Origin: Bryobacterales bacterium
Lineage (GTDB): Bacteria > Acidobacteriota > Terriglobia > Bryobacterales > Bryobacteraceae
Assembly: GCA_003164035.1 (NCBI GenBank)
Contig: PLRS01000155.1
Coordinates: 10,987-74,986 of the forward strand
Reading direction: 5' to 3'
DNA length: 64,000 bases
Made by a program: the position numbers and the translations under genes. Under the pieces are notes generated by a model, which was given only the letters and a program-made list of their open reading frames with translations, had not been told where the DNA came from and made no database searches. Positions 11,693-19,454 of this stretch are shown here, in pieces (the first letter of the stretch is position 1; the number at the start of each line of letters is the position of its first letter).

Positions 11693-12967
11693 TCATTTTC
11701 CCAAGAAACCCGCGATCAGCCACAGATTCCGCAGTTGCCGGTATCCCAAGCCTTCCAGCATGGCCGCGGCAAATAGCTTCACCAGTTCGCTCGGATCCGA
11801 CGCTTCATACTGAGCCAGTTCCCGCAGCACCACGGCCGCCATCGATACCAGCGCTCCCGTCCCCAACGTGGCCATAAGCACCAGCCTGATCGCCGTGCCG
11901 CTGGCGTGACCCGTGAACACCGCCGCCGCCAACACCAGATAGGCGCCGGTTTCGATCACCGGCAGCAGCAGCCTCCAGCCCACCAAACCAGGCAGAACCC
12001 ATCCCATTCCACCCAACCCTTCCATGCGCACCGCGTGCGCCAGCGCGTGCTGATCGCGGCTGACCGTGCGATGCAATTCCGCTACGCTCCGCGGCGAGCG
12101 GCAGTAGCCGACCGGATCCGGCACCAGCGCCACGTGCGCCGGTTTGCCGGCGGCCGGCCGACGCTTCCGCACCGCCAGGACTGTATCGAGCGAACCGTCG
12201 CGAAAGCCGCCGGCTTCCTCGATCGCATCCTTGCGCACCAGCAACGCGCTGCCTGGAAACGGCCCCAGCCGGTCCCATCCGGCGGCCGCGGCCGCGCGTC
12301 CCAGCCAGATCCGGATCTCTTCCAACCCCCAAAAGCGGGCCGGCCAGGATTCGCCGAGCGGGCCCGGACCGCCTCCGCAAACCGCCACCGTGCCGGCCGG
12401 ATCCTCCAGCATGGGCCGGATGAGGGTGAGCAGCGCATCCTGCGGGAACTCGCTGGCCGGGTCGAACAGCGCCAGCAGGGGCGACTGGGCCGCATTCGCC
12501 GCCGCGTTCCAGGCCTCCGACGGCCTCCCGCCTTCGGTTTCCACCACCACCATCCGCACCGGATCGAGCGATTGATAGACGGCGCGAACCTTGGCGGACG
12601 CGAGCGTTCCTCCCACGCGCGAGGAGCGCCGCAGGCGAAATTCGCTGGACCACGTCTCCCTCTCCGCCTCGTCCGGGTTCTCCAGCACCAGCACCGTTTC
12701 CGAGCGGCCGAAATCCAGGCACAGCAGCCGGCGCACAAAAGCCCGCGCGGCCGGCGACGCGTCGCGGCAGACCGCCAGTACCGACACCGCCGGCACCAGC
12801 GGGGATTTCAGCAGCACGTTGCCGCTCTCGTCCGGATTGCGCCGCCGCAACCGCCGCAACACCATACAGCCCTTGAGGAGGATCCCAAAAGCCGCCACCC
12901 CGGCCAGTGTCAGCACCAATGCAGCCGCGGTCAGGACGGTGGCTGCCCAGTCCGCGGGCGGGTTCAT
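11693..12967 (-). CDS. membrane-bound family 2-like glycosyltransferase, degenerate catalytic core
   Basis: The protein has 424 residues: an N-terminal membrane helix (10-32), a cytoplasmic GT-A-like domain (55-310) and two C-terminal membrane helices (about 320-385), the plan of PgaC/IcaA-type polysaccharide synthases. VLENPDEAERETW and LFDPASEFPQDAL occupy the places of the nucleotide-binding and DxD motifs, and SRDQHALAHA sits where QxxRW is expected, so the key residues look substituted. It may be a pseudo-synthase or a divergent enzyme. Its start overlaps the HEAT-repeat gene stop by 4 bp (ATGA), placing it last in a regulator-HEAT-GT operon. Confidence 0.75.
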   Translation of the reverse strand: MNPPADWAATVLTAAALVLTLAGVAAFGILLKGCMVLRRLRRRNPDESGNVLLKSPLVPAVSVLAVCRDASPAARAFVRRLLCLDFGRSETVLVLENPDEAERETWSSEFRLRRSSRVGGTLASAKVRAVYQSLDPVRMVVVETEGGRPSEAWNAAANAAQSPLLALFDPASEFPQDALLTLIRPMLEDPAGTVAVCGGGPGPLGESWPARFWGLEEIRIWLGRAAAAAGWDRLGPFPGSALLVRKDAIEEAGGFRDGSLDTVLAVRKRRPAAGKPAHVALVPDPVGYCRSPRSVAELHRTVSRDQHALAHAVRMEGLGGMGWVLPGLVGWRLLLPVIETGAYLVLAAAVFTGHASGTAIRLVLMATLGTGALVSMAAVVLRELAQYEASDPSELVKLFAAAMLEGLGYRQLRNLWLIAGFLGK

Positions 12968-14043
12968 CCGAGCCTCGCTCCGTGTGCGAACCGTTCCAGG
13001 GCTTCGGCGGCCGCCGCGGCCGTGGCTTCGTTTTCGCTGGACGCCAGATCGCTCAACGCGCTCAGTCCCATGGGAGGCAACTCGGCCAGGGCCGCCGCCG
13101 CCGCGCGCAGTTGCCCGGCGTTCCCCAGCCTCATGCCGCGAGCCAGCAGCGGAATGGCATTGGCCAGTTTCATGCGCGCCGCGGCGTGGGCGGCGGCACA
13201 GAACACTTCCGGCTGGGCGGCGTCGCGGAGGGAATCGAGGATGGCCGCTTCATGATCCGCCGACGGCGGAAGCAGCGGCGCCAGACCCAATGCGCTCGCC
13301 CGGATGCGCGCGTCCCGGTGCTCCAGCAAACGGTGCAGGTCTTCGAAGGGCAGGGCCCGCTCCCAGGCAACCAGCAACTGCAGCGCCACCAGCGTCCGCT
13401 CCGGGTCTTTTCCGTTCAGCTCCCGGGGAATCGCGCCCTCGCAGAGCGCGAGCGCCCGGCGGCGCAACTCTTCGGTGAGGCGGATCCGCGAGAGCAGGTT
13501 GTTCTCCATCGCCATGGCGAAGACCCGTTCGAATTGTTCCGGAACCTCCGAATGCAGCACGGCGCGCGCCGCGGCCACCCGCACCTCCCGGTCGGCGTCG
13601 TCCAAGGCCAGCAGGGGAATCTCGCCGCTCAGCCGCCGGCACGGCTCGAACGAAGTCACAAACGCCAGGCCCTTGAACGCTCTGCGCCGCTCCATCGGTT
13701 CGCGCGAACGCGTGTCGTGAACCCAGCCCTGCACCAGCCCCAGGCCGATCGCGGCCTCGCACAACCGGTCGCGGGCGGCGCCGGCCACCTTCCCTTCGAA
13801 TTCCGTCAGCACCCGGCCGGCGGCGGCGTGGTCCGGCCCCACCAGCTTACGAATCTGCTCCACGTTGTCGCTGCCCGCGATGCTCTCGATCAGCAACTGG
13901 CGAATCCGCGGCTCGATCTCCGCCTCGCGCCGTTTCCGCGTCCGGGATTTCGCGGCCCGGGCCAGCGACACACCGAACATCCCCGCCACCCATAGCGCGT
14001 AGAAGCCCAGCAGGGCGGAGACGATGCGCAGAGCGGCGGTCAT
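12964..14043 (-). CDS. membrane-anchored HEAT-repeat protein
   Basis: There are 359 residues with one N-terminal membrane helix (5-27) followed by basic KSRTRKRREAE and then alpha-alpha repeats of about 30-35 residues to the end. Recurring units such as DADREVRVAAARAVL and HRDARIRASALGLAPLL are HEAT-like. Such proteins act as protein-binding scaffolds. It overlaps the upstream regulator stop (ATGA) and the downstream GT start (ATGA), so the three products are probably made in fixed ratio. HEAT-repeat proteins beside family-2 synthases and response regulators occur in exopolysaccharide loci of other bacteria (family knowledge); a scaffold role here is inference. Confidence 0.8.
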   Translation of the reverse strand: MTAALRIVSALLGFYALWVAGMFGVSLARAAKSRTRKRREAEIEPRIRQLLIESIAGSDNVEQIRKLVGPDHAAAGRVLTEFEGKVAGAARDRLCEAAIGLGLVQGWVHDTRSREPMERRRAFKGLAFVTSFEPCRRLSGEIPLLALDDADREVRVAAARAVLHSEVPEQFERVFAMAMENNLLSRIRLTEELRRRALALCEGAIPRELNGKDPERTLVALQLLVAWERALPFEDLHRLLEHRDARIRASALGLAPLLPPSADHEAAILDSLRDAAQPEVFCAAAHAAARMKLANAIPLLARGMRLGNAGQLRAAAAALAELPPMGLSALSDLASSENEATAAAAAEALERFAHGARLG

Positions 14044-15542
14044 CGCGAAGCGAGTCGTTTCAGACGGGCAACCAGTTCCATCGGGCTGAACGGCTTGACC
14101 ACGTAGTCGTCGGCTCCCAACGAAAAACCGCGAATGACGTCGCTTTCCTGCTGCCGCGCCGTCAGCAGCATCACGCGCACGGGTAGCGATTCCTTGCGCA
14201 ACGCCGCCAGCACTTCGTAGCCGTCCATCCCCGGCATGCTTACGTCCAAAACCGCGATATCGGGCTTGAGGCGGCGGATGGTTTCGAGCGCCGTCGTGCC
14301 GTCCGGCACGGTCTCGATATCGAAACCGAAGTTCTTTAGCGTGGTGCTCACCAGTGCCCGCACCGTGGGGTCGTCGTCGGCGATGACCACCCGCGCCCGC
14401 GCGCCTGTCCCCAGGGGAGATAACGGAATGGGCCGTGCGCCCCCGGCCGGCTTTTCGATCTGCGCCAGGCTCAACCGTACCAGCGCTTCCTCCGGCTGCC
14501 AGGCGTCCATCAGAAATTCCCGCGCCAGCGCTTGCACCTTCGGGTCCAACGCCAACAGGTGATCCCGGCTCCCCACCAGCACCACCGGCATCCGCTTCCA
14601 TACCGGCGCGCTCGCCTCCAGCCATGCGTCCGTATTCACTTCCGGCGCCACGAAGACTACTGCCAGGTCGGCCGATAGCGCCTCCTCGCCGGTGGGATTC
14701 GAACCCGCTTCGAAAAACGTCACCGTTCCATGGGCGCGCTCCAAAGCGATGCCCAGACGCTCCTCCTCGGCGGCGGGCAAACCCACGGCCGTGATCCGCT
14801 TCCCGGTAAACGCCTGCGAAACGTACTCCGGAATCGGCATATCGCGCGCCTCGCGCGGGCTGGAAAAAGCCAGTGCCAAGGCGGTAAGCGATTCCCGCAA
14901 CTGGGCGTTGTCCAGCGGCCGGTCCAGCAGAATCGCTTCCGCTTCCCGCGCCAGCCGGCTGATGGCCGTGTAGCCCAGCAGGCCCCCGGTTCCCACCCAC
15001 TGGTGAACCAGTTTGGCCGCGTCGTTGGCGCTGAAATGACCGTCCAGGTCCAGCAGCAGTTGGCGCGATTTCTCCCGGCCCTCGGCCAGAAAAACGCGCC
15101 GCAGCGCCTGCAGGTCCGCTTCGGGAATGGCCGCCACTTCACCCGCCGGCGGCGCCGCCGCGGCTTCGTTGCGCCGGGCCAGGTGCTCCCGCAACCGGCT
15201 GCCCAGCGTGCGCGTATCGATGGGCTTGGTGATGTAACCGTCGCAACCGGCGTCGATGGCCTTCTGCTCGTCGCCTTTCATGGCGAAAGCCGTCAGCGCC
15301 ACCACCACCAGGTCTTTCAGGTTCGGATCTTTGCGGATGCGCCGCGTCAACTCCAGGCCGTCCATCCCTGGAAGTTGGATATCGGTCAGCACCAGGTAGG
15401 GATGAAAACTTTTCAGTAGCTCCAGCGCCTCTTCCGCCGTAGTGGCGGTCATCACCTTGTATCCCTCGTTGACAAGCAGTATACGGGTGAGTTTCAGGTT
15501 TACCGGAGTATCGTCGACAACCAATATCGGCTCGCCAGCCAT
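14040..15542 (-). CDS. multi-domain response regulator: REC - Hpt-like - degenerate REC - REC
   Basis: The protein has 500 residues. The first receiver (1-120) has VVDD (D10, D11), phospho-acceptor D54 in TDIQLPGMDG, T84 and K106. Residues ~135-235 are helical with KLVHQWVGTGGLLG, where H180 sits as in histidine phosphotransfer domains. Residues ~245-365 look like a receiver without acidic pocket. The last receiver (~378-500) is intact (IADDDP, acceptor near D433 in LDVSMPGMDG, K483). There is no output domain, so it works through phosphotransfer or protein contact. The sensor kinase lies 44 bp upstream, and the HEAT gene overlaps its stop. Confidence 0.9.
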   Translation of the reverse strand: MAGEPILVVDDTPVNLKLTRILLVNEGYKVMTATTAEEALELLKSFHPYLVLTDIQLPGMDGLELTRRIRKDPNLKDLVVVALTAFAMKGDEQKAIDAGCDGYITKPIDTRTLGSRLREHLARRNEAAAAPPAGEVAAIPEADLQALRRVFLAEGREKSRQLLLDLDGHFSANDAAKLVHQWVGTGGLLGYTAISRLAREAEAILLDRPLDNAQLRESLTALALAFSSPREARDMPIPEYVSQAFTGKRITAVGLPAAEEERLGIALERAHGTVTFFEAGSNPTGEEALSADLAVVFVAPEVNTDAWLEASAPVWKRMPVVLVGSRDHLLALDPKVQALAREFLMDAWQPEEALVRLSLAQIEKPAGGARPIPLSPLGTGARARVVIADDDPTVRALVSTTLKNFGFDIETVPDGTTALETIRRLKPDIAVLDVSMPGMDGYEVLAALRKESLPVRVMLLTARQQESDVIRGFSLGADDYVVKPFSPMELVARLKRLASR

Positions 15543-15586
15543 GTTGAGTTTATTCTAGCTTAGGCCGTGCCCGCTGGATACAATTA

Positions 15587-17545
15587 CTAAGCGGCTGTAG
15601 TTATCCCTGTCGAACGATAATGTAATGGGAATATTGCAGAAAACACGCTCCCTTTGCCCGGCGTGCTGCGCACGGCGACGGTTCCACCCTGGGCCTCCAC
15701 GATGTGCCGCGTCAACGCCAGGCCCAGCCCGGTGCCTTGCCCCGCTTTCTTACTGTTGGGGATCTGCTGAAACTCCTGGAACAGGCGAGCCACTTCCTCG
15801 GCCGGAATGCCGATCCCGGTGTCTTCCACCTCCAGCCGAAAGGCGTCGTTGCCTTCCATCCCCACCCGCACCGTGACTACGCCCCCAGCCGGAGTGAACT
15901 TGACCGCGTTGGAAAGGTAGTTGTATAAAACCTGTTTGAATCGCGCCGGATCGAGAAATGCCGTCAGCCCCGGAATTACGTCCAGCACCAACTGCTGCCC
16001 GCCTTTTTCCGACAGCGGCCGGATCACGTCGCGCACTTCCTCCACCAGCAGAGTGATCTTCGAAATCTCCGGCCGGAATTCCATCTTGCCCGCCTCCACC
16101 TTGGCCAGATCCAGAATGTCGTTGATGAGCTGCAACAGGTGGCGCGCGCTCACCAGAATGTCGCTCAGACACTCCTTGTGATCTTCGGAAACTTCTCCCA
16201 CCCTGCCGTCGTAAAGAATTTCGGCAAAGCCGATGATGGCGTTCAGCGGCGTGCGCAGTTCGTGAGAGACGCCGGCCAGGAACCGTCCCTTGGCGGCCAC
16301 CGCGTTGCGCGCCGCTTCCAGAGCGTGGCCCAACTGCTCATTGCGATTGCGCAATTCCAGGGCGTATTGCTCCACTTTGCGCGCCGCCATGGCGGCGATG
16401 TTCCGCTCGGTGACGTCGGTCAGCGAGCGCAGCACCGCGGTTACATGCCCGTTATCGTCGCGGATGAACGTCTCCCGGATTTCCACCCCGATGCGGCTGC
16501 CGTCCTCCAGCAACAGGTCGCAGTTGAAGTTGCCGCCTTCTTCTCCGCGCGCGATCCGTTCGAGCATGGCGGCGCGGAAACTCTCCTGTTGATCGGGAGC
16601 CACGAAATCCCACGCGCGATAGCCCAGCAATTGGTCGGGAGCCGTCTTGAGCAGGTTGCTCACGGCCTGATTGAAACGCCGCACTACCCCCTCGCGATCG
16701 GTTTCCTCGTAAGGAATCGGAGCCTGATCGAAGAAATTGCGGTACCGGCTTTCGCTGTCGCGCATCTCTTTTTCGCGGCTGCGCAGCAGGTGCGAAGCTT
16801 CCTCCAGGCGCCGCGCCAGGTCGGCGATTTCGTCGGTTCCGCGAGGCAGTCCCTCCAGCGGCAAGCCGTGCGCCAGCCGCCGCGCGTTCTCCTCCAGAGC
16901 GCGCATCCGCCGCAACACGCGCCCGGCCAGCAGCAGGTGGATGAAGAGCGCCCCCATCGGTCCGCCTACGCCGCACACCACCACGATCCGGAACTGGCGC
17001 CGGCGCGTCTCGTCGCGCGCGGCTCTGGCGGCGGCCGATATCCGCTCCTGGGCGTCGGCCAGCCTCGCCAGCCGGGCCTCGACGTCGCCTACCACCCGAA
17101 TCTGGTTGCCCGACCCGGCTCCCGCCACGCGCTGCGCGAATAGAGACAGTGCCTGCGACGTCAGCCGGCGAATCCCGGCGGCGTCGGCGTCGTTCTCCCC
17201 CAGAAGCGCCCTCAGATCCGCCATCGCCCGGCCCGCTTCCCCGCGCGCCGCCGCATACGCCGCGCGATACGTCTCCTGGTGGGTCGCCGCGTAGGCATCG
17301 GCCGCGTTCTCTCCGTCCGCCAGCGCGCCGCGCAGCCGCAATACAGCCACCCGGACGTCGTAGGAGTGGCTCACCAGCGCTTCGGTATACCGCCCGTTCT
17401 CATCCGCCCAGTACACCGAAAACAACGCCACGAACAGCGCCGCGATCGGAAACGTGAGTACGGCGACACCCTGCGCCCGCAGGGAAACCCGAGTCCAGCG
17501 GGCCAGGCCGTCGTGCGGATCGCGTTTTTCTGCCGGCTTGGCCAT
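15587..17545 (-). CDS. sensor histidine kinase with periplasmic CHASE3-like, HAMP and PAS domains
   Basis: There are 652 residues. Two membrane helices (28-46 and 187-208) bracket a helical periplasmic sensor (47-186). A HAMP-like linker (209-260), a PAS domain (262-380), the dimerisation/phosphoacceptor domain with H428 (GVSHELRTPLNA) and a HATPase domain follow (N box LYNYLSNAVKF; VEDTGIGIP; GQGTGLGLAL). It is the first gene of the minus-strand set with the multi-receiver regulator, HEAT protein and GT. The gap to the regulator is 44 bp. The promoter region (17546-17621) is shared with the divergent Ser/Thr kinase. Confidence 0.93.
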   Translation of the reverse strand: MAKPAEKRDPHDGLARWTRVSLRAQGVAVLTFPIAALFVALFSVYWADENGRYTEALVSHSYDVRVAVLRLRGALADGENAADAYAATHQETYRAAYAAARGEAGRAMADLRALLGENDADAAGIRRLTSQALSLFAQRVAGAGSGNQIRVVGDVEARLARLADAQERISAAARAARDETRRRQFRIVVVCGVGGPMGALFIHLLLAGRVLRRMRALEENARRLAHGLPLEGLPRGTDEIADLARRLEEASHLLRSREKEMRDSESRYRNFFDQAPIPYEETDREGVVRRFNQAVSNLLKTAPDQLLGYRAWDFVAPDQQESFRAAMLERIARGEEGGNFNCDLLLEDGSRIGVEIRETFIRDDNGHVTAVLRSLTDVTERNIAAMAARKVEQYALELRNRNEQLGHALEAARNAVAAKGRFLAGVSHELRTPLNAIIGFAEILYDGRVGEVSEDHKECLSDILVSARHLLQLINDILDLAKVEAGKMEFRPEISKITLLVEEVRDVIRPLSEKGGQQLVLDVIPGLTAFLDPARFKQVLYNYLSNAVKFTPAGGVVTVRVGMEGNDAFRLEVEDTGIGIPAEEVARLFQEFQQIPNSKKAGQGTGLGLALTRHIVEAQGGTVAVRSTPGKGSVFSAIFPLHYRSTGITTAA

Positions 17546-17621: not shown

Positions 17622-19454
17622 ATGGATCGCATCGGGCGATACAAAATCGTCAGGGAGTTGGGCCGCGGCGCTATGGGCGTGGTCTACCATGCCATCGATC
17701 CCAACATCGGCCGCCCGGTGGCCATCAAAACCATCCAACTGACCGGTGCGCGGACGCCGGACGAGCAGGCCCGCCTGCGCGAGCGCCTGTTCCGCGAAGC
17801 CCGCTCGGCCGGCATCCTTTCGCACCCCGGCATCGTCACCGTCTACGACGTGGAACAGCAGGGCGACCTGGCCTACATCGCCATGGAATTCGTGGACGGC
17901 CCCACGCTCGATCAATTGCTGAGCGCTCCGGAACCTCTCCCGCCCGCGCGCATGTTCGCCATCCTCGGCCAGACCGCCGCGGCCCTCGATTACGCCCACC
18001 AGAAAGGCATCGTCCATCGCGACATCAAGCCCGCCAATATCATGATTGCCGCCGATGGCACCGCCAAAATCAGCGATTTCGGCATCGCCAAGGTCACCGC
18101 CTCCGAGCAGTTCACCATGACCGGCTCGATCGTCGGCACGCCCCATTACATGTCGCCCGAGCAGGTGCAGGGTCTCAGCCTGGACGGCCGCTCCGACCAG
18201 TTCTCGCTGGCGGTGATGGCCTTTGAGATCCTGACCGGCGAAAAGCCCTACACCGGCGAGCATCTGACTACGGTGGTCTACAAGATCGTGGCCGAAGAGC
18301 CGGAGTCGCCCCACCGCTTGAACCCGTCCCTCAACGGCGCCATCGAGAGCGTCATGAAGAAAGGGCTGGCCAAAAAGCCCGAGGGCCGCTATCGCACCTG
18401 CCAGGAATTTGTCGAGGCGCTGGAGAAGGCCTGCGCCGGCGTCAAGAATTTCAAAACCATGCCCCGCGGCGGCAGCCTGAACGAGCCCACCATGGGGGAC
18501 GCCGCCGCCCCGGCCGCGCCCGGCGCGATTCCACCTCTGCCGCCGCCCCGCCGTCCGCGGCGCGGCGAAACCACCGTCACCCGCGACCGCGAGCCGCCGC
18601 GCAAATCTAGGTTTCTGCCGTTTCTGGCGGCCGTTTTGCTGGCAGCCGCGCTGTTGGCTCTCATTGGCTGGCAGGCGTCGCCATGGCATGGGCGTCCGAG
18701 TGTTCCCGAGTCCGACAACGCCGGCAGCCCCGGCCCCGCGGGGCCAGCCCAGTCGCCTCAGCCGGCCAACCCCTCCGCGCAGAAGCCCAGCCCCATGCCT
18801 GCCTCGGCCGCGCCCTCGGCTCCGGCCGCGCCCGCTGCATCCGCGGCAACCCAGCCGACGGCCTCCGACGCTTCCGCCCCGCCCCCGTCGCCGTCCACCG
18901 CCGCCAGCACCGAGCCGGTACCTAAACCCGCCAGCGAACCTGGTGACACGGCCGCGGCCGCCAAACCCGCGCCCGCCGCGACCCATCCCGCCCACCCGGC
19001 TCCGGCCTCCGCTTCGTCGCGCACTCCACCAGGGCCCCAACCGGTCACCGTGATCAGCAGCCCCGCCGGCGCCACCGCAACCCTCGATGGGCGCTCCGAG
19101 ACGGCCTGCAAGACTCCCTGCGAACTCGACGCCCCGCCCGGCCAGCATTCCATCTACATCTCCATGCCCGGCTACCAGATCGAACGCCGCGAAACCACCG
19201 TCGGCAATAGCCCGCTCGAACTGGAAGCCGTCATCCTGCACGCCTACGCCGGAACCCTGATGCTAAGCAGCGCCCCGCCCGGCGCCACCATCCGCATCAA
19301 CGGAAAAGATATCGGAAGGCGCACCCCCGCCCAGCTTTCGCTCGCGCCCGGCACCTACAAAGTCACGGTGGAAAAAGACGGCGCCGCCAAAACCACCGAC
19401 GTCGACATCCGCAACGACGAAACCAAGTTGCTGCGGGTTCTGCTGGGTCAGTAA
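17622..19454 (+). CDS. Ser/Thr protein kinase, transmembrane, with two PEGA domains
   Basis: The protein has 610 residues. The PknB-type kinase domain (1-270) is complete: ELGRGAMGVVY loop, K36, HRDIKPAN with D134, DFG at 152-154, GTPHYMSPEQ. One membrane helix follows near residues 328-347, then a long Ala/Pro/Ser-rich linker (~355-470), which should span the periplasm, and two C-terminal PEGA beta domains (about 472-540 and 545-610). PEGA domains are thought to contact cell-wall or surface material. It diverges from the histidine kinase with only 76 bp between, so the two signalling branches may share regulation. A 45-bp double hairpin starts 7 nt after the stop. Confidence 0.95.
   Translation: MDRIGRYKIVRELGRGAMGVVYHAIDPNIGRPVAIKTIQLTGARTPDEQARLRERLFREARSAGILSHPGIVTVYDVEQQGDLAYIAMEFVDGPTLDQLLSAPEPLPPARMFAILGQTAAALDYAHQKGIVHRDIKPANIMIAADGTAKISDFGIAKVTASEQFTMTGSIVGTPHYMSPEQVQGLSLDGRSDQFSLAVMAFEILTGEKPYTGEHLTTVVYKIVAEEPESPHRLNPSLNGAIESVMKKGLAKKPEGRYRTCQEFVEALEKACAGVKNFKTMPRGGSLNEPTMGDAAAPAAPGAIPPLPPPRRPRRGETTVTRDREPPRKSRFLPFLAAVLLAAALLALIGWQASPWHGRPSVPESDNAGSPGPAGPAQSPQPANPSAQKPSPMPASAAPSAPAAPAASAATQPTASDASAPPPSPSTAASTEPVPKPASEPGDTAAAAKPAPAATHPAHPAPASASSRTPPGPQPVTVISSPAGATATLDGRSETACKTPCELDAPPGQHSIYISMPGYQIERRETTVGNSPLELEAVILHAYAGTLMLSSAPPGATIRINGKDIGRRTPAQLSLAPGTYKVTVEKDGAAKTTDVDIRNDETKLLRVLLGQ

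Follow-up and report, generated by a model that had tools for sequence, protein, structure and literature searches.

What does a signalling cassette control when the enzyme encoded at its end appears to have lost its active site? The question is raised by a stretch of 64,000 nucleotides from a soil Bryobacterales bacterium of the phylum Acidobacteriota (GenBank assembly GCA_003164035.1, contig PLRS01000155.1, positions 10,987 to 74,986), referred to here as the window. In it, a sensor histidine kinase, a response regulator, a HEAT-repeat protein and a glycosyltransferase (GT) of the GT2 type are encoded one after the other. An earlier note, made from the sequence alone, had read the four genes as one signalling-to-surface unit built around a non-canonical polysaccharide synthase. 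The present analysis suggests a dead enzyme that now does another job, such as signalling; the probability that an enzyme of a phosphorelay module has turned into a non-catalytic membrane partner is put at about 0.5. The four genes, in window coordinates, are the following:

15587..17545, minus strand: sensor histidine kinase, CHASE3-HAMP-PAS-HisKA-HATPase; no receiver of its own found (Pfam)
14040..15542, minus strand: four-part response regulator, REC1-Hpt-pseudoREC-REC3, without output domain (Pfam, AlphaFold model, alignment of 11)
12964..14043, minus strand: HEAT-repeat protein; N-terminal hydrophobic segment at about residues 5-28, read from the sequence
11693..12967, minus strand: putative pseudo-glycosyltransferase with a processive-GT2 fold and its catalytic motifs lost (alignment, AlphaFold model, fold match)

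These coordinates confirm that the four genes lie in a row, and that ATGA overlaps join the regulator gene to the HEAT gene and the HEAT gene to the GT gene.

The glycosyltransferase and its clade

The window GT was barely recognized by Pfam (Glycos_transf_2, 23.6 bits versus a cut-off of 23.3), while an intact relative scored 82 bits. Compared with relatives from the same family and from other families of the phylum, it has lost NDGS, DxD, an insert of about 12 residues, the GED/TED base and QxxRW. Three of these sites were located by alignment:

12668..12685, minus strand: site of NDGSxD in intact relatives, here LENPDE
12452..12466, minus strand: site of DxD, here FDPAS, followed by E173
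12044..12070, minus strand: site of QRxRWxRG, here RTVSRDQHA

A search with a GT profile through 237 genomes of the same family (E ≤ 1e-10, at most the seven best candidates scored per genome) gave matches in 44 of them. By motif and score, 15 loci in 14 genomes, the window's included, were of the pseudo type; seven hits below 54 bits were left unclassified, as were short fragments from G402 and G403. The 13 full-length GTs of this clade keep NDGS, TED/GED and QxxRW in no case and DxD in one (L087). The motifs are kept in 24 of the 25 other full-length rows (L022 has DDGS for NDGS), the exception being L025, which is described further below. When BcsA was aligned to an intact relative, its DAD, TED and QxxRW coincided with the motifs of that relative; DxD, TED and QxxRW are given as signatures of processive GTs in the NfrB paper (PMC8669469).

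The AlphaFold model of the window GT (predicted local distance difference test, pLDDT, 77.7; predicted template modelling score, pTM, 0.74) matched over the whole chain PcManGT (Z 22.2), hyaluronan synthase (Z 21.1, 373 residues aligned) and BcsA (Z 16.8). The predicted structure has a GT-A domain and membrane helices in the arrangement of BcsA and hyaluronan synthase; the likeness to these two enzymes is one of whole-chain fold (Z 16.8 to 21.1), and the difference lies in the missing catalytic motifs. Modelling of the active site, proposed earlier as a check, showed the fold of hyaluronan and cellulose synthases to be kept while the motifs are absent. As judged from alignment and model, the window GT is a pseudo-synthase, that is, a synthase fold with a dismantled active site. 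The motif loss claimed in the earlier note stands for DxD and QxxRW, and extends to NDGS and the TED/GED base. Its 'non-canonical polysaccharide synthase' does not hold up as well: a dead synthase is the better reading because the three signatures of processive catalysis plus NDGS are lost and, as described below, the barrel partner is missing. The fold is normal and the active site is not, and the literature searched showed no named system made up of these four genes.

The regulator-HEAT-pseudoGT order recurs in all 15 loci of the clade, as does the ATGA overlap of regulator and HEAT genes, which is more than chance and bears out the idea of one conserved unit. A kinase was found in 11 of the 15 loci; in 10 of the 14 loci other than the window's, a homologue with 51-59% identity precedes the regulator. 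Three loci (L066, L071 and L072) have a broken or cut GT or regulator gene. In trees, the pseudo type forms a single clade placed among intact loci, with support of 100/100 for the GT and, by the Shimodaira-Hasegawa-like approximate likelihood ratio test, of 99 for the regulator and 100 for the HEAT protein. The GT trees were made without the fragments of L071 (two), L072 and L088; L025 is grouped as canonical in this first one, and for the GT tree used further below, 8 further rows were dropped and 13 added. The cut regulator of L066 was left out of the regulator tree, and L066 is counted as a pseudo locus in the HEAT tree. The ratio of non-synonymous to synonymous substitution rates (dN/dS) was 0.28-0.44 in six of six pairs of pseudo loci, indicating purifying selection; in the pair L016/L062 it was 0.26 for the HEAT protein, 0.35 for the regulator and 0.44 for the GT.

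The control module and the intact relatives

Pfam assigned CHASE3 above and HAMP below the cut-off to the kinase, together with PAS and with the HisKA and HATPase domains that a His-Asp-His-Asp phosphorelay requires. For the regulator it gave two Response_reg stretches and an Hpt match of 24.2 bits versus a cut-off of 24.6, and a VpsR-domain match that falls over the receivers. The AlphaFold model of the regulator (pLDDT 79.2) contains a receiver (REC) at residues 5-128, a helical Hpt-like segment at 141-227, a receiver-like fold at 249-362 and a second REC at 384-499; since its pTM is 0.35, the four parts are only loosely placed relative to each other. From alignment and model, they are:

15159..15530, minus strand: REC1, residues 5-128, acceptor D54
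14862..15122, minus strand: Hpt-like helical segment, residues 141-227, H180 (Pfam Hpt just below cut-off)
14457..14798, minus strand: degenerate receiver, residues 249-362, acceptor Asp absent
14046..14393, minus strand: REC3, residues 384-499, acceptor D433

D54, H180 and D433 were invariant in all 11 aligned regulators, and no acceptor Asp was seen in the middle receiver in this alignment. Pfam, the alignment of 11 and the model thus agree with what had been read from the sequence: two intact receivers, one degenerate receiver, an Hpt-like segment and no output domain. Two receivers with an acceptor Asp and a phosphotransfer His between them are what a phosphorelay calls for. The Hpt motif HxxKG usually has a Lys; the window regulator has a Val at this position. 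As far as the sequences indicate, kinase and regulator could form a four-step His-Asp-His-Asp relay ending in a receiver without a DNA-binding domain. No domain for control by cyclic di-GMP (c-di-GMP), i.e. MshEN or PilZ, was found by Pfam in the four window proteins at E ≤ 1. The HEAT protein, which is probably anchored in the membrane, scored 23.7 with HEAT_2, below the cut-off of 27.7, and has a homologue in all 15 pseudo loci.

Nineteen of the 23 intact-type hits in the family were compared with wide flanks (those of G262, G271, G279 and G362 were not; L073, L075 and L076 are near-copies). With cut-offs of at least 60 bits for the regulator (BLAST; such a match may rest on the receiver alone), at least 47 for HEAT and at least 45 bits for YaiO, a regulator homologue was found in all 19 loci, and a HEAT gene and a YaiO-like barrel in 16 loci each. 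Thirteen of the 16 YaiO-like genes scored above 130 bits, those of L077, L081 and L090 only 47-56 bits (perhaps through the TPR only); six lie on the other strand and three about 7 kb away. In L091, kinase, regulator, YaiO, HEAT and intact GT stand in a row, the CHASE3 kinase being 40% identical. L078 and L085 encode a regulator, a HEAT protein, an intact GT and a protein that matches HisKA but not HATPase; YaiO is not adjacent. The earlier suggestion of a link to synthase loci that also carry HEAT and a regulator is borne out within the same family. Wider sampling of the phylum (396 genomes, at most the four best candidates scored per genome) gave matches at E ≤ 1e-20 in 85; outside the family the highest score was 321 bits, for an intact GT in G069, versus 627 for the window's own GT.

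No YaiO was found in the 15 pseudo loci, several of which are cut by contig ends, nor in the window genome, in a search that found YaiO in E. coli as a control. Nor did the window genome contain another close GT of this family, its next hit reaching 32.9 bits. Among 15 other genomes scanned (13 of the pseudo type plus G402 and G403), YaiO was present only in G343 and G398, both of which carry an intact and a dead GT locus (L086 and L064 in G343, L085 and L069 in G398, respectively). The window GT descends from processive-type GT2s. Their loci carry a regulator and, in most cases, HEAT and YaiO, while the pseudo loci are without YaiO; this makes the unit resemble a regulated exopolysaccharide locus in which exporter and catalysis were lost and the control module was kept.

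One intact relative, L018:3715-12225, is an exopolysaccharide-type operon with a four-part regulator, a TPR-YaiO protein, a HEAT protein, an intact GT2, a further protein and a polysaccharide deacetylase; no description of an operon of this type was found in the literature searched.

Possible roles of the pseudo-synthase

In the proposed mechanism, the phosphate would pass from the kinase to D54 of REC1, from there to H180 of the Hpt segment and finally to D433 of REC3. Protein contact is the likely output of REC3 because it has no DNA-binding domain, and the HEAT protein and the pseudo-GT would be its natural targets because their genes overlap that of the regulator or each other. REC3 may thus act by contact through the HEAT protein, probably membrane-anchored, on the pseudo-synthase. 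The latter might be a membrane-embedded receptor, a scaffold or a decoy that titrates a partner, sensing for example a nucleotide sugar, a lipid or a glycan in its channel. Where the synthase is intact, this module probably controls its activity post-translationally, as c-di-GMP does for NfrB and cellulose synthase. A wider proposal, put forward tentatively, is that of a bacterial membrane receptor or effector of a new kind: a dead polysaccharide synthase would serve a phosphorelay of two proteins and four steps as its target or sensor, by way of a HEAT adaptor, and HEAT-GT2 synthases would have lost catalysis at least twice in the Acidobacteriota.

Several observations weigh against a non-catalytic membrane partner controlled by a phosphorelay. 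No adjacent kinase was seen in four of the 15 pseudo loci (L017, L064 and L087 are without one; L066 is cut at a contig end). Nor is the relay complete everywhere: no Hpt match was found in L087, the most divergent pseudo locus, or in the intact loci L078 and L085, and the intact loci L019 and L023 have a single receiver. In five of six pairs of intact relatives dN/dS was 0.04-0.21 (one pair was saturated), below the values for the pseudo loci, and the pseudo clade has a long GT stem (1.5); both point to a relaxed constraint on the GT. The pseudo-GT of G317 (L071:7068-8281) is divided between two overlapping frames, by either an assembly error or true decay. Finally, 10 of the 11 aligned pseudo members share a glutamate directly behind the DxD site (E173, window 12449-12451), which could be a shifted metal ligand.

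This last residue would suit a GT that has kept enzymatic activity through a rearrangement of its active site and produces either a polysaccharide or a lipid-linked sugar. D305, kept in nine of the 11 aligned members, the GT-A fold, intact in the model, and LDG at the nucleotide loop in nine of 13 members (not in the window's) agree with such an enzyme, and the epimerase found near six of the 14 other pseudo loci (see below) could hint at sugar metabolism. A surviving activity is nevertheless unlikely: none of the 13 members has TED/GED or QxxRW, the LEL site does not carry an acid throughout (MGL in L065), the epimerase has no window homologue at E ≤ 1e-10, and YaiO is absent from the window's own genome and, among the other 13 genomes of the clade, present only in the two that keep an intact synthase. 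The higher dN/dS, the long stem, the GT copy split between two frames in L071 and the sparse distribution (14 of 237 genomes of the family) might instead mark the cassette as the decaying remnant of a synthase locus. Decay appears improbable in view of full-length open frames in 13 members, 36-50% identity to the window GT in the 10 pseudo members aligned, dN/dS values below 0.5 in every pair, and a gene order and regulator-HEAT overlap kept throughout the clade. Similarly improbable is that the pseudo-GT keeps its membrane part only and helps another, active synthase as a non-catalytic subunit. Its long helices at membrane positions, the whole-chain fold and the two genomes holding both GT types would fit; however, 12 of the 14 pseudo-type genomes showed no intact member of the GT family (E ≤ 1e-10, at most the seven best candidates per genome, several genomes being incomplete), so that the synthase partner would have to be from another family.

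Known systems resemble the cassette in part. The E. coli yaiO-yaiP region shares with most intact relatives a YaiO-type barrel near a GT2, whereas the pseudo cassette is without YaiO; no HEAT protein or regulator is known from that region. NfrB of E. coli is, as described in PMC8669469, a membrane GT2 with DxD, TED and QxxRW, encoded in an operon with NfrA, a TPR beta-barrel outer-membrane protein, and gated by c-di-GMP via an MshEN domain. The intact acidobacterial relatives are similar in that a membrane GT2, in most loci beside a YaiO-like TPR barrel, would be gated by signalling; they differ in being encoded with a receiver-type regulator and, mostly, a HEAT protein. The window GT has neither the motifs nor the barrel. 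The EcpK pseudokinase of Myxococcus, according to PMC12004946, is a dead enzyme kept in exopolysaccharide biosynthesis; it is like the window GT a pseudoenzyme in polysaccharide control, but a pseudokinase and not a pseudo-synthase. In the literature searched, beyond the reach of which lie many subscription papers, no described system was found for the combination of HEAT protein, GT and regulator, for inactive GTs or for YaiO systems.

If the pseudo-synthase is indeed a non-catalytic partner of the phosphorelay, the known bacterial pseudoenzymes would be joined by pseudo-synthases with a signalling function. In PMC8669469, the control of processive synthases goes through c-di-GMP; the acidobacterial GT2 family lies, within the window's GTDB family, with a receiver-type regulator and mostly HEAT. 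One clade kept this control module after the loss of the active site, a natural separation of signalling from catalysis, and the effect of regulator and HEAT protein on the synthase could be studied on working and dead forms in parallel, even from one genome (G398).

Neighbouring genes and a second degenerate set

The Ser/Thr kinase with PEGA domains (window 17622-19454), divergent to the cassette, had been proposed as a further input. It was rejected as a partner, since in only one of the 15 pseudo loci, that of the window, does it lie within 9 kb of the GT. A homologue with 60% identity begins about 8.5 kb beyond the GT in L065, and the intact locus L085 has a weak serine/threonine kinase match (168 bits, 35%). 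A role of the cassette in defence was also rejected: PADLOC gave nothing for the GT and the HEAT protein, and its matches to the regulator and the kinase lie on the receivers and on the ATPase domain, respectively.

Downstream of the GT, co-directional with it and 0.4-2.8 kb away, an NAD-dependent epimerase is encoded in six of the 14 other pseudo loci, the copies being 76-93% identical to that of L016:

L016:9286-10398
L062:10690-11724
L064:3569-4861
L065:8470-9573
L066:3498-4436
L067:11290-12231

It was found in none of the intact loci compared. L063, L069, L070 and L071, with 4.4-8.6 kb of downstream sequence, do not have it, while L017, L068, L072 and L087 (four of the 14) end too soon, with less than 1.1 kb. 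Its absence from the window and from the former four loci is why the epimerase was not counted as part of the unit.

A second set of degenerate GTs was found at seven loci (L025 and L125-L130) in families f38, f52 and f83; the GT of L025, in genome G123, lies at L025:8503-10086. These GT2s are without intact DxD, base and QxxRW, and the beginning of the nucleotide loop remains in six of the seven (not L128). In the best tree they stand apart from the window's clade, although support for the set is weak (65/93) and L128 has a very long branch; a joint clade of the two sets was not rejected by the approximately unbiased test (p 0.147). A separate origin of the two degenerate sets is favoured, but not proven. 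HEAT genes adjoin the GT in L025, L128, L129 and L130, with none found for L125-L127. A radical-SAM gene, presumably of the QueE type, follows the GT in L025 and L129 (Pfam) and in L126 and L130 (by reading).

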